Assembly: GCA_950295325.1 (NCBI GenBank)
Contig: OX485806.1
Coordinates: forward strand, 3,720,001 to 3,784,000
Reading direction: 5' to 3'
Origin: Polytrichum commune
Taxonomy: Eukaryota; Streptophyta; Polytrichopsida; Polytrichales; Polytrichaceae
Length of the DNA: 64,000 nt
A program made the translations under genes and the position numbers. Below are positions 8,745 through 51,870 of the stretch, one piece after another; position 1 is the stretch's first letter, and the number at the start of each line of letters is the position of its first letter. A model generated the notes under the pieces. The model was not told where the DNA came from and did not search any database. It was given only the letters and a program-made list of their open reading frames with translations.

Positions 8745-9440
8745 GACCTTAATCAACTTGTTGAAAAAATGGCTATCCCAAGATTGGGATGAGCCTTGTC
8801 ACCAAGCTTTTGGGGAGCTCAAAAGCAAGTTCTCTTTATAAGACGTGGTCAAATTCCCGCGTTTTCAAAAGCATTTTGAGGTGCATATGAAGGCGAGGAA
8901 CTTCATCATTGGCGGATGTTGATGCAAGATGCATGACCATTGCATACAAGAATATTAAGCTCGATGGTTGTCGAACATTGTTTAGCTTGTACAAGAAACG
9001 GCTATCCCAAGAGTGGGATGAGCCTTGCCACCAAGTCTTTGAGGAGCTTAAGAGCAATTTCTCTTCACCGCCTATGCTGAAGTTTGCGGAGTTTGACAAA
9101 CCTTTTGAGGTGCATACGGGGGCGAATGAGTTTATCATTGGCGGATGTTAATGCAAGATGGATGGCCATTGCATATGGGAGCATGAAGCTCCATGGTTGT
9201 CCGACCTTGTCCGACTTGTGAAAGAAATGGCTATCCCAAGAGTGGAATGATGCTTGTCACGAAGTCTTTGGGGAGCTTAAGAGCAATTTCTCTTCGCCGC
9301 CCGTGTTCAAGTTCACAAAGTGTGACATACCTTTTGAGGTGCATACGGGGGCGAGTGACTTACAAATGGCGGATTGTTGATGGAAGATGGATGGCCATTG
9401 TATATGGGAGCATGAAGCTCGATGGTTGTCAAAGAAAACA
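8745..9440 (+). repeat. 229-bp tandem triplication inside the gypsy RNase H region
   Basis: The segment around 'ggctatcccaag' starts at 8771, 9000 and 9229, exactly 229 bp apart. The downstream blocks ('gaggagcttaagagcaattt', 'ttttgaggtgcatacggggg') repeat in step. Because 229 is not a multiple of three, each copy shifts the pol frame by one base, which explains why this domain appears in all three plus frames. Confidence 0.88.
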
Positions 9441-20489: not shown

Positions 20490-20530
<41 letters not shown>

Positions 20531-21009
20531 ACAGGGGTTGGGAACGGGGGCGGACGGGGGGGGGGGGGAATGGGGCAGACGGGGTCGGGAACGAAGCGGA
20601 CAGGGGCGGGAACGGGTGCGGACGGGGTCGGGAACATGGTTTTTTTTTTTTTTTTTTTTTTGACGGGGGCTGGGAACGGGGGCGGACGGGGTCGGGGACT
20701 GTTTTTTTTTTTGCGGACGGGGGTTGGGAACGGGGCGGACGGGGTCGGGAACGGGGTCGGGAACGGGGCGGACGGGCGCTAGTAATTTTTTCCCCACTTT
20801 ACCTCTACTTTGCTGACATGTCATCACACGTGGACATCTTACATCCTACGTGTCCGAAATGGGGTAATGTAATTACACACAGAATTTGGTAAAATTCAAG
20901 TCCGTCAGGATAAAGACAGCATCCGGCATAATGTCGTGACGGATACGTGTCGTGACGGCACGACATTATGCCGAGATTAGCCTCCGTCATTACACAATAG
21001 ACAACCCTG
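20195..21009. mobile_element. 815-bp hAT-like non-autonomous element with G-rich/poly-T core
   Basis: The terminal inverted repeats CAGGGTTGTCTAT and ATAGACAACCCTG match over 13 bp, and CAGGG is a common hAT terminus. The perfect 8-bp duplication AGTTTATG flanks it (20187-20194 and 21010-21017). Subterminal 'gtcgtgacgg'/'ccgtcacgac' motifs occur in both orientations near both ends, as expected for transposase-binding sites. There is no transposase frame; long open frames through the core come from poly-T and G-rich repeats only. Confidence 0.9.
20487..20790 (+). repeat. G-rich minisatellite with long T tracts
   Basis: Units such as 'ggaacgggggcggacggggt' and 'cgggaacggggcggacgggg' alternate with T runs of roughly 10 to 38 bases (20491-20529, 20639-20660, 20702-20712). 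The G-runs on the plus strand are dense enough for G-quadruplex formation. This is not coding; apparent proteins are poly-Phe/Gly or poly-Lys artefacts. Confidence 0.85.
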
Positions 21010-22215: not shown

Positions 22216-22941
22216 GCCGGTACCCTAAGCCTGAGGCCGAGAGCTTCGAATACAGGTGTCGGGGCCGAGTCCCTTGCCTTCCTCGGTACTGCAGCCCTGT
22301 TCTCCGCTAAGCTTCGCCCTCTGTTCACAGACTTCGGCCCTCTTTCGGTTAACAACTCTCTTGTGATTGATTTCCTTTTTCTAATCTCAAACAACTCTTG
22401 CTTGAATTACATTAGTTCCTCTTTGTAATGTTGTCACTTAACACGGGAAACCTAGAAATCTTTCTAATTTTTCGCCATCGAGTTGGCAAGAGGGCAAGTG
22501 GGCAAGTAGCCCCCTTGCTCTCTTTCTTTTTTGTCTTCAAAAGTCTTCAAGCCGATTTTGTCTTCTTACGCAAAACACCTCCAATAGTCTTGTGTGCCTC
22601 ACACTAACTAATAAACTAACACTTGCTTAGCTAGCATCTACTAACATTTGCTTAATAGCTAGCATCTACTAATATTTGTTTAGCTAGTTGCTTTTACTAG
22701 CTAGTTGTTTTTTTCTACTTTGCTAGTTTGTTGCTAGTTTGTTGTTTTTACTAGCTAGCATATTTTTTCTACTTTGATATCTTCTAGCACTACTTAGTTT
22801 CATTTTGACCTTCCTTCTTCTAGGCTAAATGCTAAATGAACTAATTTTCCCTAAATTCCCTATCAATTCTAACTTTTAATGCTAACATTCTAACTAAAAG
22901 TGATCCCGCAGAGTGGTGGACCACTCAAGGGGTTCACAGTA
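22216..22941. other. No gene; short 'gctagcat' repeat tract
   Basis: Degenerate units of 'gctagcatctactaacattt' and 'ctagttgcttttactagcta' run from about 22600 to 22770. The remainder is AT-rich with no supported frame. Confidence 0.5.
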
Positions 22942-23222
22942 GGCAGTTGGGAGGCCAGCATTCGGCCAAACTTAGTTAAAAGGCAAGGCAGCTGGGAGGC
23001 CAGCATTCGGCCAAGGATTGTTCGAAGGTAGGCAGCTGGGAGGCCCAACATTCGGCCAAGGATTGTTCGAAGGTAGGCAACTAGGAGGCCAACATTCGGC
23101 CAAACTTAGTTCGAAGGCAAGGCAGCTGGGAGGCCAGCATTCGGCCAAGGATTGTTCGAAGGTAGGGAGCTGGGAGGCCAGCATTCGGCCAAGGATTGTT
23201 TGAAGGTAGGCAGTTGGGAGGC
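22942..23222. repeat. 44/45-bp minisatellite, left part
   Basis: Six to seven units of the type 'ggcagctgggaggccagcat' + 'tcggccaaggattgttcgaa' + 'ggta' start at 22942, 22987, 23031, 23076 and onward. The array stops at 23222 at the edge of the LTR and resumes at 24480, so it was once continuous. Confidence 0.9.
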
Positions 23223-24479: not shown

Positions 24480-24662
24480 GAGGCCCAGCATTCGGCCAAG
24501 GATTGTTCGAAGGTAGGCAGCTGGGAGGCCCAGCATTCGGCCAAAGATTGTTCGAAGGCAAAGCAGCTGGGAGGCCAACATTCGGCCAAACTTAGTTCGA
24601 AGGCAAGGCATCTGGGAGGCCAGCATTCGGCCAAGGTTAGTTCGAAGGCAAGGCAGCTGGGT
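24480..24662. repeat. 44/45-bp minisatellite, right part
   Basis: Four units of the same minisatellite as 22942-23222, resuming immediately after the solo LTR. Unit sequence and length are unchanged, which supports a recent split. Confidence 0.9.
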
Positions 24663-24974
24663 TAGGCCCAGTGTGAGCCCTAAATTGCGCTCACATGGTT
24701 CCCTAATCACTAAGAATTGCTAATACCTGGAATATGTGCTTGCTTGAATTATCTAAAGGTTAAGAAATGCGAAGGGTTAAAAGTCTTGATTAGATTAAAT
24801 TAAAAGGTGAATAAGAGCTAGGAAGGGCAATAAACCTTAGAGGATTAACGGGGAGTAAAAGGCATAAGTGTTAAGTGTGAGTCTAGTAAAAAAACGTATT
24901 AAAAACAACCTAGCAATACCAATAGAATAATAGAAGGGGTCATAATAATGACCATTGTTTATTGAATAATATGT

Positions 24975-30491: not shown

Positions 30492-30824
30492 ATTCCCTTC
30501 GGCGGACGCTAAAGAACACCTATTGAGCTCTGTGCGCCTAAGAATCCGCGTCCCCTGGCCCACGTGTCAGTGCCCAAACCATAACCTTCTGGACCTGCCC
30601 ACGCTGTTGCCCGCACCTTGCCAGACCGGATGGAACCTTGGACAGAGTTAGCTCCAACGACATTAGTCATCCTTCGAGCCATGGATCCTCTTTCGAGCAT
30701 TGGGAACGTTCCCTATCTCCTTCCCATCGGTTTTCAACCACATTTGCTAATGTGTTATGCAAACGATATCTGCGGAATGTGTTATGCATCAAAATCTCTG
30801 GAATGTGTTATACGCCGGTTCCAA

Positions 30825-31145
30825 ATCCAAAAATGTATTATGCACTAAATCCAAATTTACAAATGTGTCATCCGTCATATTCATGTTTACGAATGTGTCA
30901 TGCACTAGATCCAAATTTACAAATGTGTCATGCACTAGATCCATATTTATAAATATGTCATGCGTCATATTCATATTTACAAATGTGTCATGCACAAGAT
31001 CCAGATTTACAAATATGTCATGCGTCATTTTCATATTTACAAATGTGTCATGCGTCATATTCAAATGTGTCATGCACTTGATCCAAATTTGTGAATGTGT
31101 CATACATCATATTCAAAATTTCAAATGTGCTATGCACTACATCCA
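30825..31145. repeat. 30-bp tandem repeat in the left fold-back arm
   Basis: About ten units of the type 'tcatgcgtcatattcatatt' + 'tacaaatgtg'. The mirror array lies at 32190-32470 with fewer units, so unit number changed after the arms were formed. Confidence 0.85.
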
Positions 31146-32189
31146 GGTGGAGGACGTTAAGTACCCCCCCACAAACTTTTCAGGGGGGGGGGGGGAATAT
31201 TCTGTCAGGGGCAACTGCCCGTCAATTTTTCTGCACCCGACCGAAAATTGCTGCCCGCCCGCCCGACTTCGAAAATACTATTGTACTTGCATTTTTGAAG
31301 GCTACTTGTCCACATATCCCATATTGAGTGCACTTCATTTTCAAGGTCTCAAATCCAATATATATGTTCACTTTCATTGAGTAAATAAGCAATTGACTGG
31401 ATTTCATTTTCAAAGTGAAACCGCCAATAAAGCACGTAATAAACTTGGAAGTCAAAAATATTACAAATTCCTCATTATCATTGAGGTTATAATTTTTGTC
31501 ACTTACAATTGAAAGGGACTTTGTCATTCTAAAGTGAAACTCAAATTGAAGATTTTTTAATTTTTAATTTTATATATATATATATATAAAATATAGTTAA
31601 TACCGACTACTATCACAAATTTTTCATACGCATTTAAACTAGTTAAGTAAGATTGCATGCAACTAAGTCTAGTAATTTTTGATTTATCACAATGTTGATT
31701 TAAAAAAGCTTAATTAGGATAAATCAAAAATTACTAGACTTAGTTGCATTCAATCTTACTTAACTAGTTTAAATGCGTATGAAAAATTTGTGATAGTAGT
31801 TGGTATTAACTATTTTTTTTATATATATATATAATTAAAAAATTAAAAAATCTTCAATTTGAGTTTCACTTTAGAATGACAAAGTCCCTTTCAATTGTAA
31901 GTGACAAAAATTATAACCTCAATGCTAATGAGGAATTTGTAATATTTTTGACTTCCAAATTTATTACGTGCTTTATTGGCGGTTTCACTTTGAAAATGAA
32001 ATCCAGTCAATTGCTTATTTAGTCAATGAAAGTGAACATATATATTGGATTTGAGACCTTGAAAATGAAATGCACTCAATATGGGATTTGTGGACAAGTA
32101 GTCTTCAAAAATGCAAGTACAATAGTTTTTTCGAAGTCAGGCGGGCAGGTAACAGTTTTCGGTCGGGTGCAGAAAAATTGACGGGGCAG

Positions 32190-32470
32190 GATCAAGTGCA
32201 TGACACATTTGAATATGACGCATGATACATTTGTAAATCTGGATCTTGTGCATGACACATTTGTAAATATGAAAATGACGCATGACATATTTGTAAATCT
32301 GGATCTTGTGCATGACACATTTGTAAATATGAATATGACGCATGACATATTTATAAATATGGATCTAGTGCATGACACATTCGTAAACATGAATATGACG
32401 GATGACACATTTGTAAATTTGGATTTAGTGCATAACACATTTTTGGATTTGGGACCGGCGTATAACACAT
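32190..32470. repeat. 30-bp tandem repeat in the right fold-back arm
   Basis: The inverted counterpart of the array at 30825-31145, with the same 30-bp unit read as 'atgacacatttgtaaatatg' on the plus strand. Confidence 0.85.
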
Positions 32471-32823
32471 TCCAGAGATTTTGATGCATAACACATTCTG
32501 CAGATATCGTTTGCATAACACATTAGCAAATATGGTTGAAAACCGATGGGAAGGAGATAGGGAACGTTCCCAATGCTCGAAAGAGGATCCATGGCTCGAA
32601 GGATGACTAACGTCGTTGGAGCTAACTCCGTCCAAGGTTCCATCCGGTCTGGCAAGGTGCGGGCAACAGCGTGGGCAGGTCCAGAAAGTTATGGTTTGGG
32701 CACTGACATGTGGGCCAGGGGACGCGGATTCTTAGGCGCACAGAGCTCGATAGGTGTTCTTTAGCGTCCGCCATTCCCTTCTCCCACGATTTCACCTCCA
32801 AGTCTTCTCTAATCCCGGTTCAC

Positions 32824-34187: not shown

Positions 34188-34984
34188 AGTGGCTCCCCGA
34201 CGCTCTTCTCCAAGGAGCGGAGAGGGCAACGCGGAGCCCCCCCCCGGTTTTACCAGCCCCGCCCCCGCTGCCGAAGAAACGATTCCTGGTGTTAGACCTG
34301 AACGGGGTCCTTGTCCAATGCGTTCATTGCCCTAGGGCCCCCACGGTGCCCTTTTGCAAGCCTGAGGACGCAAATTACGACGGGCCGCCCACGTTTATAA
34401 AGAGCAAGCTAGTGCACCTCCGGCCGTGGCTCCGGCGCTCCCTGCAGATCGCCCAAACAAAATGGTGGGTGGTCGTGTGGAACTCCATGAAGGCCGAGAA
34501 CACCAATGCCGTCATGGAGTTCATCTTCAAGGGCATCGAACCCCCTTGCCTGGTCCTAGCACAGGAAGCATGTAGAATATTGTACACACCGGACGGCAAA
34601 GTCGTCAAAAAACCAAACAACCCCGCTTCCCCCCAATATCTCAAGGTCTTGAAGCCCATTTTTTGGGACCAGCGACCGTCCTTGATAGGCGTCCCCTACG
34701 ATGTCCGTCCCACCCGCGAGAACACGCTCATGGTGGACGACATCGCCGCCAAGAACATGTTGAACCCGACGGCCAACTTCATAGTTTGCCCTACGTGGAC
34801 GGTCGAGAAGGTCCGGGACCGATTTTTGTTAGACCTTAGTAAATACCTGCAGGCGCTCTGGGGTAGCGGACTACCCGTAAACAATTTTGTTAGGAATAAT
34901 CCGATAGGCGAGAGATACTTGGATCCACGAGACCATTTGTACAAAGAGTTGATCTCTTACGTGAAATTTAACAAGCTCATTTGA
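34188..34984 (+). CDS. FCP1-like HAD-superfamily phosphatase domain protein (5' end uncertain)
   Basis: The open frame runs from after a stop at 34187-34189 to TGA at 34982-34984 without an ATG before the domain, so an upstream coding exon is likely. The domain starts 'PKKRFLVLDLNGVLVQ' (near 34268-34315), the HAD motif I position. The canonical DxDGT/V motif has become DLNG, with Asn replacing the second Asp. Motif II fits 'WWVVVWNSMKAEN' and motif IV fits 'NTLMVDDIAAKN'. C-terminal 'LPVNNFVRNNPIGERYLDP' resembles the tail of plant FCP1-homology proteins. FCP1/SCP enzymes dephosphorylate the RNA polymerase II CTD; activity here is doubtful because the missing Asp normally acts as acid/base. 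A phase-0 donor candidate (gtgaaa at 34961) could join the exon at 35122 and replace the last eight residues. The GC-rich base use contrasts sharply with its AT-rich surroundings. Confidence 0.7.
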
Positions 34985-37198: not shown

Positions 37199-40100
37199 TT
37201 AGGTTAATTCCATAAAAGAATCAAAATAAACCTTCGCATCCTCCGATATCATTTTGAAGCCCATTTTGTTGCTCAGAAGTAGGGTTGTCAAAGAACTCAA
37301 GTTCTCCAATCCCTCCGGTATCGTTGTCAAGCTCGTACAGTTTCTCAGAAATAGGATTCTCAAAGAATTCAAGTTCCCCAATCCCTCCGGTATCGTTGTC
37401 AAGCTCGTACAGTTGCTCAGAAATAGGGTTGTCAAAGACCTCAAGTTCTCCAATCCCTCCTGAATGGTTGTCAGGCTCGTACAATCTGCCAAATCTAAGG
37501 TTGTCAAAGAACACAGGTACCCCAATCCCTCCGATATCATTGTCAACCTCGTACAGTTGGTCAGATTTAGGATTGTCAAAGAACTCAAGTTCCCCAATCC
37601 CTCCAGTATCGTTGTCAAGCTCGTACAGTTGGTCATATTTAGGGTTGTCAAAGAATTCAAGTTCCCCAATCCCTCCAAGATCGTTGTCAAGCTCGTACAG
37701 TTGCTCAGAAATAGGGTTGTCAAAGAACTCAAGTTCCCCAATCCCTCCGGTATCGTTGTCAAGCTCGTACAGTTGCTCAGAAATAGGGTTGTCAAAGAAC
37801 TCAAGTTCCCCAATCCCTCCGGTATCGTTGTCAAGCTCGTACAGTTGCTCAGAAATAGGGTTGTCAAAGAACTCAAGTTCCCCAATCCCTCCGGTATCGT
37901 TATCAAGCTCTCACATTGTCTCAAATCTAGGATTGTCAAAGAACTAAAGTTCTTCAATCCCTCCGATATCGTTGTCAAACTCGTACAGTTGGTCAAATTT
38001 AGGGTTGTCAAAGAACTCAAGTTCCCCAATTCCTCCGGTATCGTTGTCAAGCTCGTACAATTGCTAGGAATTAGGGTTGTCAAAGAATTCAAGTTTCCCA
38101 ATCCCTCCGGTATCGTTGTCAAGCTCTCCCACTATCTCAAATCTAAGGTTTCCAAAGAACTCAAGTTCCCCAATCCCTCCGGTATCGTTCTCAAGCTCGT
38201 ACAGTTGCTTAGCAATAGGGTTGTCAAAGAACTCAAGTTCCCCAATCCCTCCGGAATGGTTGTCAAACTTGTACAGTTGATCAGATTTAGGGTTGTCAAA
38301 GAACTCAAGTTCCCCAATTCCTCCGATACGCTTGTCAAGCTCGTACACCTGCTCAAATGTAGGGTTGTCAAAGACCTCAAGTTCCCCAATCCCTCCGGTA
38401 TCATTCTCAAGCTCGTACAGTTGCTCAGAAGTAGGGTTGTGAAAGAACTCAAGTTCCCCAATCCCTCCGGTATCGTTGTCAAGCTCGTACAATCTGCCAA
38501 ATCTAAGGTTGTCAAAGAACTCAAGTTCCCCAATCCCTCCAATACGCTTGTCAAGCTCGTACACCCGCTCAAATGTAGGGTTGTCAAAGACCTCAAGTTC
38601 CCCAATCCCTCCGGTATCATTGTCAAGCTCGTACAATTGCTCAGAAGTAGGGTTGTCAAAGAACTCAAGTTCCCCAATCCCTCCGGTATCGTTGTCAAGC
38701 TCGTACACCCGCTCAAATCTAGGGTTGGCAAAGAACTCAAGTTCCCCAATCCCTCCGGTATCGTTGTCAAGTTCTTACACGATTTCAAATCTAGAGTTGT
38801 CAAAGAACTCAAGTTCCCCAATCCCTCTAGTATCGTTGTCAAGCTTATACAGTTGGTCAAATTTAGGGTTGTCAAAGAACTCAAGTTCCCCAATCCCTCC
38901 GGTATCGTTGTCAAGCTCGTACACCCGCTCAAATCTAGGGTTGTCAAAGAACTCAAGTTCCCCAATCCCTCCGGTATCATTCTCAAGCTCGTACAGTTGT
39001 TTAGAAATAGGGTTCTCAAAGAACTCAAGTTTCCCAATCCCTCCGGTATCGTTGTCAAGCTCTCACACTGTCTCAAATTTAGGGTTTCCAAAGAACTCAA
39101 GTTCCCCAATCCCTCGGGAATGGTTGTCAAGCTTGTACAATTGATCAGATTTAGGGTTGTGAAAGAACTCAAGTTCCCCAATCCCTCCGGTATCGTTGTC
39201 AAGCTCGTACAATCTGCCAAATCTAAGGTTGTCAAAGAACACAAGTTCCCCAATCCCTCCGGTATCGTTGTCAAGTTCTTACACCATTTCAAATCTAGGG
39301 TTGTCAAAGAATTCAAGTTCCCCAATCCCTCCGGTATCCTTGTCAAGCTCGTACAGTTGGTCAAATTTAGGGTTGTCAAAGAACTCAAGTTCCCCAATCC
39401 CTCCGGTATCCTTGTCAAGCTCGTACAGTTGGTCAAATTTAGGGTTGTCAAAGAACTCAAGTTCCCCAATCCCTCCGGTATCCTTGTCAAGCTCGTACAG
39501 TTGGTCAAATTTAGGGTTGTCAAAGAACTCAAGTTCCCCAATCCCTCCGGTATCGTTGTCAAGCTCGTACACCCGCTCAAATCTAGGGTTGGCAAAGAAA
39601 TCAAGTTCCCCAATCCCTCCGGTATCGTTGTCAAGTTCTTACACCATTTCAAATCTAGGGTTGTCAAAGAACTCAAGTTCCCAAATCCCTCCGGTATCGT
39701 TGTCAAGCTTGTACACCAGAAGAAATATAGGGTTGTCAAAGAACTCAAGTTCCCCAATCCCTCCGGTATTGTTGTCAAGCTTGTACACCCGCTCAAATCT
39801 AGGGTTGTGAAAGAACTCAAGTTCCCCAATCCCTCTGGTATCGTTGTCAAGCTCTCACACCGTCTCAAATTTAGGGTTTCCAAAGAACTCAAGTTCCCCA
39901 ATCCCTCCGGATTGGTTGTCAAACTTGTACAGTTGATCAGATTTAAGGTTGTCAAAGAACTCAAGTTCCCCAATCCCTCCGGTATCGTTGTCAAGCTCGT
40001 ACAGTTGGTCAGAAATAGGGTTGTCAAAGAACTCAAGTTCCCCAATTCCTCCGATACGCTTGTCAAGCTCGTACACCCGCTCAAATCTAGGGTTGTCAAA

Positions 40101-41647
40101 GACCTCAAGTTCCCCAATCCCTCCGGTATCATTGTCAAGCTCGTACAGTTGCTCAGAAGTAGGGTTGTGAAAGAACTCAAGTTCCCCAATCCCTCCGGTA
40201 TCGTTGTCAAGCTCGTACAATCTGCCAAATCTAAGGTTGTCAAAGAACACAAGTTCCCCAATCCCTCCGGTATCGTTGTCAAGCTCGTACATCCGCTGAA
40301 ATCTAGGGTTGTCAGAGAACTCAAGTTCTCCAATCCCTCCGGTATCATTGTCAAGCTCGTACAGTTGTTTAGAAATAGGGTTGTCAAAGAACTCAAGTTC
40401 CCCAATCCCTCCGGTATCGTTGTCAAGCTCGTACTGCTGCTCAAATCTAGGCTAGTCAAAGAACTCAAGTTCCATAATCCCTCCGGTATCGTTGTCAAGC
40501 TCGTACAGTTGCTTAGAAATAGGGTTGTCAAAGAACTCACGTTCCCCAATCGCTCCGGTATCGTTGTCAAGCTCTCACACTGTCTCAAATCTAGGGTTTC
40601 CAAAGAACTCAAGTTCCCCAATCCCTCCGGTATCATTGTCAAGCTCGTACTCTTGGTCAAATATAGGGTTGTCAAAGAACTCAAGTTCCCCAATCCCTCC
40701 GGTATCGTTGTCAAGCTCGTACAGTTGTACAAATTTAGGGTTGTCAAAGAACTCAAGTTCCCCAATCCCTCCGGCATCGTTGTCAAGCTCGTACACCCGC
40801 TCAAATCTAGGGTTGTCAAAGAACTCAAGTTCCCCATTCCCTCCGGTATCGTTGTCAAGCTCGTACAATCTCCCAAATTTAGGGTTGTCAAAGAACTCAA
40901 GTTCCCCAATCCCTCCGGTATCGTTGTCAAGCTTGTACAGGTGCTGAGAAATAGGGTTGTCAAAGAACTTAAGTTCCACAATCCATCCGGTATCGTTGTC
41001 AAGCTCGTACAGTTGCTCAGAAGTAGGGTTGTCAAAGAACTCAAGTTCCCCAATCCGTCCGGTATCGTTGTCAAGCTCTCACACTGTCTCAAATCTAGGG
41101 TTGTCAAAGAACTCAAGTTCGCCAATCCCTCCGGTATCGTTGTCAAGCTCGTACACCGTCTCAAATCTAGGCGTGTCAAAGAACTCAAGTTCCCCAATCC
41201 CTCCGGTATCGTTGTCAAGCTCGTACAATTGCTCAAATCTAATTCCATTAAAGTGGTTATTGAAAACATTTCTTTCGGTATTTGATTCAAGAATGAACAT
41301 CCTCGCAATTGTAATACTTGTAATTTTAGTAAAGATTTCCAAAGATTTGCAGTTGTTAATAGATTTCCACAAGTCTCCAAACTCATGTCATCCCAAATTT
41401 GTAATCTCATGTCACCTTGACTAAATTGTTTTAAGTCTATCATAAAACATTTCAAGCTCAAAGCGTGTGCAGCAAGTGAACAAATGCACTTTATGTTGTT
41501 GATGACATGTAAAATCTCCTTGTCTTTGCTATGAAAACTCAATAAGCGAAGATTGCTCAGACTACCATCTTGGATTTGTTGAACCTGAGATAGGTTGTGG
41601 TTTATTCCATTGCCAAAGTAAAAACAACCTTGAAGTTTTCCCACATC
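37199..41647 (-). CDS. Receptor exon 3: leucine-rich repeat array
   Basis: The exon starts DVGKLQGCFYFG after acceptor 'aaacag'. About 120 residues of irregular LRR-like sequence ('LLKLQVLQLRGCSFLNQIP') precede the array of 24-residue repeats of the form 'LSSLTTLxLxxCTSLTTIPEGLGN'. The exon closes with 'KMISEDAKVYFDSFMELT' and a stop at 37199-37201. The TAG at 38132 replaces the Gln codon found at the same place in sister repeats ('LDLRQCESLTT'). LRRs would bind the ligand or hold the receptor inactive; variable residues sit mostly in the 'LxLxxC' strand, which is where specificity usually lies. Confidence 0.85.
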
Positions 41648-44600
41648 CTGTTTTTCATAATACATGAAAGTATTAGCAACTTATACTTGTGTAAATTTTT
41701 ATAAAAGTACTAGTACTTGACATGAGTTTGTGCTAAACATCTATGACATGCTAAAAATTTGCCAAATATCCACCCAAAATGTGATTCTAAATTGAAGGTT
41801 TTCCATCAAGCCGAAAGTTTCAAAGCATCATTTGCAATTATAATACATAAGGAAATGTCTTAATGTAGACAATGTTAGTAAAATACCGAGTAGCTTGTAA
41901 GCCCGTTTGTGTTCCAAATTCGAGTACCCGCATACTCCTTCTCAGCAATCATTTGTCCCATGGCACGCAATTGGTCGTGCATTTGCAAAATTTCATCACC
42001 GTCACCATCAAGTTCTATGGTTACCAATGCTCGATGGACCAACTTCTCCAATGCGGAAATTGGAGGGATGTTGTTATCTGTCCATATGCGTAGGGCTCTT
42101 TCTTTTGACATGCCACTAGGATGCACATCTCTACCGAAGAAGCAAGCTATGTCCAAAAACATATTTTTTTCTTCTTCAGTTAAACCATCATCGAAGCTTA
42201 CTCTCAAGGTATTCCATATCTCATCATCCTCCCCGTCCAAATTTCTTCCCCTTTCCATCCTTTGCAATGCACGTTCCCAACTTCGCAATTTTCCCTTTCC
42301 ATGTAAGTATGCCCCCATGACTTTCAAACTCAAAGGCAAGCCCTTGCAACCTTCCACAATTATGTCGTGTATATCATTAAATTGTGGTGATAATTGAGAT
42401 GCTTTCCAAGAAGAATGAATGTTGAAGAGAGTTTTTGCCGCAACATCATCTAACTTGCTCACATCAAACCTTCTACCACCCGTCCTCACACGATTTCTAA
42501 TTGCACCCCAATCACGGGTTGTTATAATAAGTGTGTTACCCTTGCTCCGGTCTAAGATGACCGTTGGTATAATGTCATCCACTTGAGCTTCATCCTTAAT
42601 ATCGTCCAAGATCAAAAGGACTTTCTTTTTGTCCAACAATTCTTTCATCAATTTGTGCGCATGTTCTAAATCCTTGGCTTCTTTGTCTTTGCCAAATTTT
42701 GTTAAAATTTCACGTAGAATATCAAGCAAACTCCTACTTTTCAACTGCCCCACAAAACATGATGCATCGTATGTGGACTTCACATCATCAAATATTGCCT
42801 TTGCCAATGTGGTCTTCCCTATTCCACCCATACCCACAATACCCAAGGTATTCACTTCTTTGAGGTGATCTTTCACCCTTGCAAGGTTGTTCTCGAGACT
42901 AACCACCGTTGGATCATTTAGTAATGTTCCATCAAACACCTATATGTACAACACATAAATATGTCAATAAACTCTATTATATCTTACCACCAAAAAAATA
43001 TGTTCAACTTCAAACATCCACAATAATAAATCAAAGCAATCAATAAATTGAGAACAACTTAAATAATGAGCTCATTGTAATGCAAGTGGCATTTACCTTC
43101 TCACTACTGTGATTTGTTTCTTCCTTGCAATCTTTCAACGTTGTTGACAGCTTTTGAAAAAGATTCCTACGTCCATCAAATTGCGGAACCATATCACTCA
43201 AATGTGTTCCCTTCATGAACATTTTTTTCAAGCCTATAAGTCTCTTGCAAATATCCGAGAATGTCGGCCTTTGTAAGGGATCCTCTCTCCAACATTCCTC
43301 GATCAATTCGGTAAGCTCCCCACAATTGATAGGTAGCTCCGGCCTTTCACCCTTCTTTATTTTTGGAAGAATTTCTCTCATTTCATGTGTGTGATGAAAT
43401 GGTACCTTCCGGGAAAGGATCTCTGAACATGTCATAGCAAAAGACCATACATCCGCTTGGAAAGGACATGCCATACGAGTGAGGTTTATTTCCCATTGCT
43501 CAGGTGACATATACCTTCGTGTACCAACAATATAGTCAGGTTTTTGTTTTTGCGGTTTGCTTGTAACTTCCATTTTAGATGTGCCATAATCAATCAATTT
43601 GACATCACTAAGAGAAGGCCTTGTACCCTTTGCTCCATCAATGGTCATGAAGCTTAAAAGCACATTGTCTGGCTTTAAGTCAAGATGGGCAACATGCATG
43701 TCGTGAAGATACCACATGCCACTTCCAATTTGAAGCATAACATCAATTGCAACAACATATGGTAAGAGTGTCTTATTGAGCTCCTCCAACATTTTTGTCA
43801 AACTCATGCCTATCAACTCCATCACCAAATACAACTCCTTACGTTCTTCATCTATTCCACAACAAAAGTATTTGATGAGGTTTGGGTGGCTCAAGCCTGC
43901 CAAGATCCCAACTTCTTTGCGAAAACCAGACAAATCCTCTGGAACAATCAATTTTTTTGTTGCACTTGGCAATCCCAACCATTTTGATTCGTACACTGAT
44001 CCGAATCCACCCCTACCCATTAGTTTCTCAAGTGTAGGTTTTGAAAAATCTTTAGGTATTTCCAAAGCATCCAATTCTGCACCTTTCACTTGTTGCAAGT
44101 CACATTCCAATCTCTTCCACAAATGCTTTGCTAATTTGTGTTCTTTGGAGTCCTCATGCACATTTTTAAGTTTGTTCAACAAGTCTTGTTCATCGCCTTC
44201 AACTTCCTTCAAAGTAGCCACATTCAAATTTGTACACATTGTGTAATTTTGTGGGTTTGGATGGTTTGTCGAGTATATCTCGTGCACTGCCTCCCAACAA
44301 CACTCCAAATCAAACAAGAGTTCCCGAAAGGCCTCTTTGTTGTTTAATTGGAAAAGAGCTGCACAACACCAATCTTTACGCCCACATTCATTTACCAATG
44401 CTCCCCCTTTTTGTATGATACGATGTTACAGTAACTCCATCACCATCATCTTGACTTCGAAGGATTGCTTGATGCATGTGATCATCTCAACAATACTATG
44501 CATGGTTGTAGAAAGCTTGGCGACAAGCTTTGTGCATTGTCGCTTATTCAATACATCATCTCCTCGAAGAATAGTTTGCATTTTGATCATTTCTTCCTCT

Positions 44601-44743
44601 TTCCATTGCAAAAATTCCCCAAACTCACATGCATGCGGTGCCTCTTTCTGAACAAGTGTCAAGAAGTATATGAAGCAAGTGCTGATGAACTGCCAAAGCA
44701 TTGACAGTTGCTTCGCCAATACTCGCCGAAGCTCGATGGCCAT
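37199..44743 (-). CDS. Protein kinase-NB-ARC-LRR immune receptor (PNL type), with two in-frame stops
   Basis: Three exons: 44743-43097, 42939-41887 and 41647-37199, with GT..AG introns at 43096-42940 and 41886-41648, both in phase 0. The start ATG at 44743 opens the longest frame. The product would be about 2,380 residues: helical N-terminus, kinase (about 240-500), NB-ARC (550-900), then 55 LRRs. Receptors of this build detect pathogen molecules in the cytosol; the kinase-NBS-LRR order is the class known from mosses. Oddities: TAA at 44426-44428 after codon 105 and TAG at 38132-38134 inside the LRRs, both with homology continuing in the same frame. Either the gene is a young pseudogene, or the stops are sequence errors or are bypassed. 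All other exon borders and motifs are intact, which argues for recent loss. Confidence 0.85.
37250..41285 (-). repeat. 72-bp coding repeat: 55 LRR units in exact register
   Basis: The anchor 'ctccggta' (plus strand) ends at 37320 in the first full unit and at 41208 in the last. The difference of 3,888 bp is exactly 54 x 72, so there is no net length change across the array. Many units differ by only a few bases, and several adjacent units around 39300-39530 are almost identical. Because 72 is a multiple of three and stop codons are rare in the unit, other frames and the antisense strand also stay open for up to 3.8 kb. Confidence 0.95.
41887..42939 (-). CDS. Receptor exon 2: NB-ARC nucleotide-binding switch
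   Basis: The exon begins VFDGTLLND after acceptor 'atatag' and ends 'NGLTSYS' before donor gtattt. All diagnostic motifs are in order: P-loop GMGGIGKTT, kinase-2 'KVLLILDDIKDE', RNBS-B 'TLIITTRDW', GLPL as 'GLPLSLKVMGAYL', RNBS-D-like 'FLDIACFFG', and MHD as 'LQMHDQLRAMG'. The Lys/Thr of the P-loop, the kinase-2 aspartates and the MHD histidine/aspartate are all present, so the ADP/ATP switch looks intact. The 351 codons have no stop, unlike the flanking exons. Confidence 0.92.
43097..44743 (-). CDS. Receptor exon 1: helical N-terminus and kinase domain
   Basis: Residues 1-105 are helical and Leu/Met-rich without a signal peptide; the TAA follows. After it the frame continues 'HRIIQKGGALVNECG' into a second helical stretch and the kinase. 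Kinase landmarks: glycine loop GRGGFGSVY (about residue 243), 'ATKKL' with the ATP-binding Lys, 'FRKEV' with the paired Glu, catalytic loop HLDLKPDNVLL (about 353), metal-binding DYG in place of DFG (about 385), 'GTRRYMSPE' activation segment (about 407-415), and 'DVWSFAM'. The catalytic Asp, Asn and Lys are present, so activity is possible. Arg before the catalytic Asp is replaced by Leu (non-RD), as in many immune kinases. The exon ends 'NHSSEK' at donor gtaaat. Confidence 0.85.
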
Positions 44744-50755: not shown

Positions 50756-51870
50756 AGAGCTTGTGGTGGCCCTCCTTGCACGGCAACCACAATTGTGGCA
50801 TTGACCTGATCAAATATACGTAAATTATTCAATCACATAGTACAAAACATTATTCGGCCATGTGGGTCGGTTCCATGACTCTATACTATGTCAATTGAAT
50901 TCCATGGGTCCCCGAACAAAGTGGGAATAAACATTCATTAGAGCTTGTGGCGGCCCTTCTTGCACGGCAACCACAATTACGGCATTGATCTTATCAAATA
51001 TGTATAAGTTACTCAATCATGTATTTCACAACATCATTCGGCCATGTGGGTCGGTTCCGTGACCCTGGACTATGTCAATTGAATTCCATGGGGCCCCGAA
51101 ACAAAGTAAGAATCGTCATTTATTATTCGTACATTCAAGATGAACTTCGAAACATTTAAGAGCTTGTGGTAGCCCGCCTTGCACGGCAATCACAATTGCG
51201 GCATTAACCTAATCAAAGATGTATAAGTTACTCAATCACGTAGTTCACAACATTATTAAGGCATGTGGGTCGGTTTCATGACCCTGGACTATGTCAATTG
51301 AATTCCATGGGGCCCCGAAACAAAGTGGGAATTGTCATTTATTATTCGTACATTCAGGATGAACTTCGAAACATTTAAGAGCTTGTGGTAACCCGCCTTG
51401 CACGGCAATCACAATTGCGGCATTAACCTAATCAAAGATGTATAAGTTACTCAATCATGTAGTTCACAACATTATTCAGGCATGTGGGTCGGTTTCAAGA
51501 CTCGGGGGGTTCACTCCCTCTTATATTTTGCATACATGTGCATTCGGGACCTATTTATTGGGGGGCTATTTTACCTTGCAAAAAAGATTATAAGGTATGG
51601 TATTTTTCAAAATAAATGTGTGATGGTATTTTACATGTAATCATTTTTCATTATTTAAAAACCCCCTATATTATATGTAGGTTTTTTTCTAAAATTTATC
51701 TACAATGAATATATAGACCCTATTTTTTATCGCACGTTGTTCTACGATTTTCGCCAGTGAACCCCCCGAGTTTCATGACCCTGGACTATGTCAATTGAAT
51801 CCCATGGGCGCTCGAACAAAGTGGGATTATTCATTTATTATTCCTTCATTCATGATGAACTTCAAAATTT
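50756..51870. repeat. Tandem array, 184- to 219-bp units, split by a MITE
   Basis: The block 'agagcttgtggtagcccgcc' starts at 50756, 50940, 51159 and 51378. The first interval is 184 bp because it lacks the 'tattattcgtacattcagga' section; later intervals are 219 bp. Copy four is interrupted by the MITE at 51501-51770 and resumes with 'tttcatgaccctggactatg'. Confidence 0.9.
51501..51770. mobile_element. 270-bp hAT-like MITE, copy 2, nested in the tandem array
   Basis: The 15-bp terminal repeats are the same as in copy 1. Flanks are TTTCAAGA and TTTCATGA (7 of 8). The empty site can be read in the neighbouring repeat units ('ggtttcatgaccctgg'), which proves insertion into a pre-existing array and fixes the element ends. 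Confidence 0.95.

Follow-up and report, generated by a model that had tools for sequence, protein, structure and literature searches.

The PNL (PK-NBS-LRR: protein kinase, nucleotide-binding site, leucine-rich repeat) or Pkn-NLR class of mosses is a known kind of NLR (nucleotide-binding, LRR) receptor, and a phase-0 intron between the kinase and the NBS is given as a mark of the class in Physcomitrium patens (PMC3352924). For PpC24, a gene of this class, transcripts that contain a stop where the NBS ends are reported, as well as 8594 LRR-like sequences counted through homology to the PpC24 domains (PMC3991678). In Chia et al. (PMC11218826), large receptor repertoires are described for mosses, kinase-NLRs are noted in monocots too, e.g., Tsn1, and a P. 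patens NLR kinase domain is noted to give a modest and variable response in N. benthamiana, which bears on the class and not on the allele studied here. That allele lies in a window of 64,000 nucleotides of Polytrichum commune (assembly GCA_950295325.1, contig OX485806.1, positions 3,720,001 to 3,784,000; the coordinates below are those of the window), where a predicted kinase–NB-ARC–LRR gene of three exons on the minus strand (44743..37199), judged from its sequence, matches the moss PNL class, and where an array of 55 LRR units constitutes the LRR domain of this gene. We consider it rather probable that the gene is a PNL receptor of which the LRR units were homogenised by exchange, the recognition cassettes were reshuffled among the units, and the present allele was recently inactivated or shortened.

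The variable lymphocyte receptors (VLRs) of lampreys also consist of LRR modules that have a common frame and variable exposed residues, and they are diversified by gene conversion. The present array is like them in its LRR modules of common frame with variable exposed residues, whereas the VLRs are assembled somatically from separate genomic cassettes and here there is one germline sequence. As far as the descriptions available go, the present gene has in common with the P. patens PNL genes the kinase, the TNL-type NB-ARC, the LRR and the phase-0 kinase/NBS intron, and it differs from the moss PNL genes including PpC24, when compared by description only, in its one homogenised 55-unit array and its two in-frame stops. 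Horizontal evolution of protein repeats in general shows high pN/pS among units (pN and pS, nonsynonymous and synonymous differences per site) together with some homogenisation, as here; unlike in that general pattern, the present signal is partitioned into core, scaffold and cassette (PMC5120217). No earlier account of an array of this kind in an NLR of mosses was recognised in the titles and abstracts searched, most subscription journals lying outside the search.

The gene model has 2382 codons before the final stop. Three successive minus-strand frames encode a protein kinase (Pfam Pkinase PF00069, E = 9.2e-40), then an NB-ARC (PF00931, 5.9e-35) with a Roq1-type winged helix (WHD_ROQ1, 1.1e-6), and then the LRR region, which many LRR Pfam families match. 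The assignment of the NB-ARC to the TNL type is based on matches and not on a tree; its best solved-structure match is Roq1 (5e-39), which we take to be a TNL, and in its translation GMGGIGKTT, LLILDD, GLPL and MHD can be read by eye, presumably the NB-ARC motifs known by these names. The predicted GT-AG intron of phase 0 at 43096-42940 lies between kinase and NBS, as in the PNL class, and the predicted phase-0 intron at 41886-41648 puts the LRR of exon 3 in frame with the NB-ARC of exon 2 and hence at the C-terminus. A single-sequence AlphaFold model of 41650-38135 gives an LRR solenoid (mean pLDDT 77.8, pTM 0.50, the first ~100 residues being unreliable) with a helix at positions 6-10 and a strand at positions 16-18 of unit 1. 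Its Foldseek matches are mostly LRR proteins, with TM-scores by query length of 0.16-0.34 in the 50 rows listed and a top target-length TM-score of 0.74, to SHOC2, among the matches listed. The LRRs of the initial annotation, placed there among those of plant immune receptors, are borne out as the LRR domain of a plant NLR-type receptor by the Pfam domains and the solved-structure matches. No second copy of the gene was found in the window by tblastn at E 1e-3 with the kinase, the NB-ARC, the N-terminal region, the pre-array LRR region and six array units as queries, hits within the array being filtered out. Among viral contigs none of 37 pattern matches was confirmed as a relative, and among bacterial and archaeal genome contigs 2 of 93 were confirmed, both distant (36-37% identity) and both in bacterial metagenome-assembled genomes; these two contain 0 and 3 motif starts and the window frame 47, the scan being unable to judge the spacing in the matches.

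The array arising by chance is excluded. A single array is listed by Tandem Repeats Finder (37268-41241, period 72, 55.2 copies, 86% matches, 1% indels, score 5569), and when the sequence is cut every 72 bases downward from 41218, all 55 units fall into register, with 24 codons in each, down to 37259, so that the array of 55 fixed 72-bp units claimed from inspection stands, as does the spacing of its anchors at 37320 and 41208 (3888 = 54 x 72). Pairs of units differ on average at 10.2 of 72 bases (range 0 to 20) and each unit departs from the consensus at 2 to 12 positions, 51 of the 55 sequences being distinct (identical pairs 14=28, 15=39, 25=26 and 48=49). There is no frameshift in the 3.96 kb and no indel between units against 163 parsimony steps; with assumed indel-to-substitution ratios of 0.05, 0.10 and 0.15, the probability of no indel is 3e-4, 8e-8 and 2e-11, which we take as supporting only. 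The zero net length change had been presented as the striking feature, but it is not the surprise: with whole units exchanged and frameshifts removed, constant unit length is expected and is unremarkable alone. The LRR coding frame on the minus strand is free of frameshifts in the array, but it is broken by a TAG in unit 43 (38134-38132). The plus strand carries a 1273-codon open frame; this frame is a by-product, as the unit consensus lacks stops in two of the three frames on the strand opposite to the sense strand, and plus-strand coding is rejected since the kinase, NB-ARC and LRR matches are all on the minus strand. The scarcity of stops is judged to be weak evidence of coding, with 1 seen versus 4.7 expected for all 355 changes and 2.5 for the 87 unique changes.

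The distribution of the differences along the unit is of more interest than its constant length. At codons 18, 20 and 21, the x positions of the LxLxxC motif that had been singled out for checking, pN/pS is 1.67 with pN 0.50 (bootstrap intervals 0.451-0.527 for pN and 0.211-0.373 for pS), whereas at the nine scaffold codons pN/pS is 0.23, that is, the exposed codons are hypervariable and the scaffold is constrained. Moreover, pS is 0.037 (0.014-0.062) in the core codons 6-16 versus 0.352 (0.289-0.411) in codons 18-24, with disjoint intervals over 100 bootstrap resamples. Synonymous diversity in the core is five- to ten-fold below that around the variable cassette; at codons 7, 10, 12 and 13 pS is 0. 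In codons 6-16 the codons of same-amino-acid pairs differ in 2.8% (393/13977) of cases versus 14.9% (1976/13230) elsewhere, and among the six leucine codons the differences per pair amount to 0.04 to 0.08 at positions 1, 8, 11 and 14, 0.20 at 17 and 0.67 at 19. Synonymous variants are of 7 kinds in the core, each in 1-2 units, and of 14 kinds elsewhere, in 1-15 units (p = 0.021). When unique variants are counted, exposed and scaffold missense changes stand at 17:4 among shared variants and 1:13 among private ones, the stop being counted as scaffold (Fisher p = 2e-5). The units seem to be kept alike by exchange while exposed-residue variants persist and spread, as they would under selection for cassette diversity. 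With an overall pS of 0.139 the synonymous sites are unsaturated, and the recent homogenisation proposed at the outset is upheld as fairly recent.

The linkage between codons decays rapidly, with a mean z of 1.57 at 1-3 codons, 0.59 at 4-7, 0.32 at 8-11 and 0.03 at 12-15, and bins beyond 15 codons have mean z values of -0.13 to 0.48, a few single pairs exceeding 3. Within a unit, codons on opposite sides of the core show no linkage (mean z -0.10, 0/32 pairs above 3); over the unit boundary the mean z is 0.54, with 2/32 pairs above 3, and the four-gamete pattern is present in 195 of 528 site pairs. Low core diversity and linkage mostly gone within about 12 codons fit a short-tract exchange that would reshuffle older cassettes. 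Units next to each other show no greater likeness than randomly paired ones (10.26 differences at lag 1 vs 10.23), and slippage neighbour by neighbour is rejected as the main mode despite two identical neighbour pairs. It had been proposed that the array grew recently by unequal crossover or is homogenised by gene conversion; the homogenisation agrees with this, but duplication of single units next to each other is not the main visible mode. Of the higher-order blocks sought, units 12-17 and 36-41 are alike, with a permutation p of 0.007 for six-unit blocks and 0.037 for unit-level local alignment, six units being the most favourable of the block lengths compared (p = 0.31, 0.14, 0.07 and 0.02 for 2, 3, 4 and 5 units). 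A regular higher-order period is rejected: the best lag, 24, has a single p of 0.0035 but a family-wise p of 0.069 over 39 lags, and only this block pair stands out. The expectation of blocks is weakly realised. The unit tree is rather star-like, with 70% of its length in terminal branches and support above 0.8 at 27 of 48 nodes. A star-like tree with saturated synonymous sites had been named as the pattern that would speak against recent growth; its first half is seen and its second half is not. The most fitting view of the array is that most of its block structure has been lost with age while its core is young.

Based on these data we propose the following pathway. Growth of the array and the likeness of its units would both be due to unequal exchange and to gene conversion over short tracts from one unit to another. 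Selection would purge frameshifts and scaffold changes and retain the older recognition cassettes (codons 18-24), which exchange would shuffle among the array positions. In the intact ancestor the concave face of the LRR would have been the site of ligand binding, and the signal would have been passed on by the NB-ARC switch together with a kinase module akin to plant MLKL. In the last step, nonsense codons would make the present allele a pseudogene of recent origin or else a receptor cut short within unit 43. A bolder version, which we hold to be distinctly less likely, is that the LRR domain is a built-in cassette library, where the low-diversity 33-bp core would serve as the exchange template among the 55 units and short-tract conversion would reshuffle some 25 recognition triplets (residues 18, 20 and 21) across positions, a germline analogue of VLR diversification, with allele death by nonsense mutation as the cost.

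Several points weigh against our reading. Over codons 18-24 together pN/pS is 0.81 (pN 0.285, pS 0.352) and over all codons it is 1.03; with the whole cassette below 1, diversifying selection rests on the three codons, which were taken from the LxLxxC motif of the initial annotation, where the variation had been seen before testing. The units are not independent, so that the p-values and intervals are approximate. The core is of low diversity but not invariant, with 27 distinct core sequences in the 55 units, the commonest in 17, and its contrast could be partly a constraint at the DNA level. A few distant codon pairs are linked, e.g., codon 17 of a unit and codon 14 of the unit that follows (z 5.3), and the higher-order signal is modest. 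Exchange and selection are both inferred from one array only. A simpler explanation, possible but in our view doubtful, is plain birth of units by unequal crossover under ordinary LRR constraint, where the exposed positions are merely less constrained, without diversifying selection or reshuffling. The two ratios just given are near the general pattern of horizontal repeat evolution in PMC5120217, and the long terminal branches of the unit tree would also be expected. Relaxation, however, should give pN/pS <= 1 at the exposed codons, where 1.67 is seen, and neither the synonymous contrast nor the exposed excess among shared variants is readily explained by it; the neighbouring units, which resemble each other no more than random pairs do, also speak against this explanation.

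We turn to the state of the allele. The reading frame is not intact, with stops at codons 106 and 2072 of 2382, while the kinase, the NB-ARC and units 1-42 have neither frameshift nor stop. Directly after the TAG there is a tryptophan, at a position that is cysteine in 51 of the 55 units. Most likely, the present allele has recently become a pseudogene or encodes a shortened receptor that ends within unit 43. The private variants are distributed as random placement would predict (12 scaffold missense changes with 10.1 expected, 1 exposed missense change with 3.3 expected and 1 stop with 1.8 expected), and because of this and of the nonsense codons a recent loss of constraint is suggested, from only 35 private variants. 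On the other side, the 12 units past the TAG have no indels and their scaffold pN/pS is still 0.28, so that the loss, if real, is recent. The earlier idea of a fast source of new recognition specificities is weakened, since two nonsense codons argue against a working source in the present copy, and together with the unselected-looking private variants they probably speak against an active generator of specificities.

As a variant of this last step, the gene could be a living shortened receptor, starting at a downstream ATG, e.g., 44239, ending in unit 43 and comprising kinase, NB-ARC and 42 complete LRRs, which we regard as unlikely though worth weighing. It would agree with the undamaged kinase, NB-ARC and units 1-42, and with units 44-55 looking less selected: outside the five most variable codons they carry 2.36 changes per unit, versus 1.25 in units 1-12 and 1.68 in units 13-42, and their exposed pN/pS is 1.12 vs 1.74, both comparisons being made with no significance test. 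But the higher rate in units 44-55 would look alike under an edge effect, as the edge units of an array can diverge more even without a stop; the private variants look unselected across the whole array, and the frame, which runs from 44785 to 43040, has no interruption other than the TAA.

An assembly artefact, by repeat collapse or expansion or by base errors creating the stops, is improbable: long similar repeats are hard to assemble, but the 51 distinct units of 55 would anchor long reads, and frameshifts number 0 in the 3.96-kb array and 0 in the kinase and NB-ARC frames. Least probable of all is selection at the DNA or RNA level on codons 6-16, e.g., as a small-RNA target repeated 55 times, which would suit the very low core synonymous diversity and the codons with pS 0, but 7 kinds of core synonymous variant arise and stay rare, as homogenisation alone would give.

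Among the listed solved structures the kinase region (window 43040-44425, minus strand) is closest to 6lba (1.8e-36) and 6ka4 (2e-35), followed by MAP3K9 (5.7e-25); the first two are labelled 'Protein kinase family protein' and 'F22L4.1 protein' in the match table, and we take them to be Arabidopsis MLKL proteins (AtMLKLs). HLDLKPDN (non-RD) and LIDYG are seen by eye. By its closest structures the present gene has an MLKL-type kinase domain in common with plant MLKL, and unlike in plant MLKL it is fused to an NB-ARC and an LRR. For a HeLo / DUF1221 four-helix domain, the N-terminal region gave no meaningful Pfam match and no solved-structure match; a collinear stretch scores an insignificant -3.5, and its model has three helices at low confidence (mean pLDDT 63.6). 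A literature search on 6KA4 together with MLKL found no paper. The MLKL-like kinase suggests a cell-death output module in this NLR class.

Table 1. Features of the predicted receptor gene and of its LRR array, in window coordinates.
Feature	Position	Strand	Basis or remark
Predicted exon 1: N-terminal region and protein kinase domain (Pfam Pkinase about 43244-44029)	43097..44743	-	Pfam; ATG at 44743 predicted
In-frame TAA, N-terminal region, codon 106 of 2382	44426..44428	-	Translation of gene model
Predicted intron 1, 157 nt, GT-AG, phase 0, separating kinase from NB-ARC	42940..43096	-	Sequence-based prediction
Predicted exon 2: NB-ARC (about 42190-42894) and winged-helix domain	41887..42939	-	Pfam, solved-structure match, motifs by eye
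Predicted intron 2, 239 nt, GT-AG, phase 0, separating NB-ARC from LRR	41648..41886	-	Sequence-based prediction
Predicted exon 3: entire LRR domain within a single exon	37199..41647	-	Sequence-based prediction
Two degenerate LRRs preceding the homogenised array	about 41219..41362	-	Translation of the LRR frame
Array of 55 LRR units, each exactly 72 bp (24 codons) long; consensus LTTIPEGLGNLSSLTTLDLSNCTS	37259..41218	-	Repeat finding, in-register cutting, LRR Pfam families, structure model
Units 12-17, higher-order block resembling units 36-41	39995..40426	-	24 differences over 432 bases
Units 25 and 26, identical neighbours	39347..39490	-	Unit comparison
Units 36-41, partner block of units 12-17, lag 24	38267..38698	-	Block comparison
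In-frame TAG, unit 43, codon 2072 of 2382	38132..38134	-	Translation of gene model
Units 48 and 49, identical neighbours; unit 47 one base different	37691..37834	-	Unit comparison
Final stop of the LRR frame, behind a short C-terminal tail	37199..37201	-	Translation

Elsewhere in the window there is a 2.27-kb imperfect palindrome (30501-32772) with 30-bp tandem subrepeats in both arms, suggestive of a foldback transposon or of a hairpin-RNA locus; its arms pair as 30501-31084 / 32189-32772 (584 nt, 93%), 31218-31570 / 31833-32185 (353 nt, 96%) and 31573-31693 / 31713-31833 (121 nt, 95%). An open frame on the plus strand (34289-34984) matches an NLI-interacting-factor-like phosphatase domain (1.4e-9), and the other 9 of the 10 open frames scanned gave no Pfam match. 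The Tandem Repeats Finder listing of the window, from which the palindrome subrepeats are also taken, contains two separate 45-bp tandem arrays (22939-23222 and 24480-24671) with the common core GAGGCC(C)AGCATTCGGCCAA, more long-period arrays at 120-821 (259 bp), 8754-9430 (229 bp) and 50756-51501 (184/219 bp), and at 20492-20768 a run of 38 T bases, after which come G-rich repeats such as GGGAACGGGGCGGACGGGGTC.

Finally, we note that the finding at present concerns one probably inactivated allele. The likeness of the kinase to plant MLKL makes a cell-death output of this NLR class a testable idea. If the partition of the units is shared by relatives, the order and number of the units would be usable as markers, and if orthologous arrays show the same quiet core with old, reshuffled cassettes, bryophyte NLRs would be a readable record of specificity recombination.

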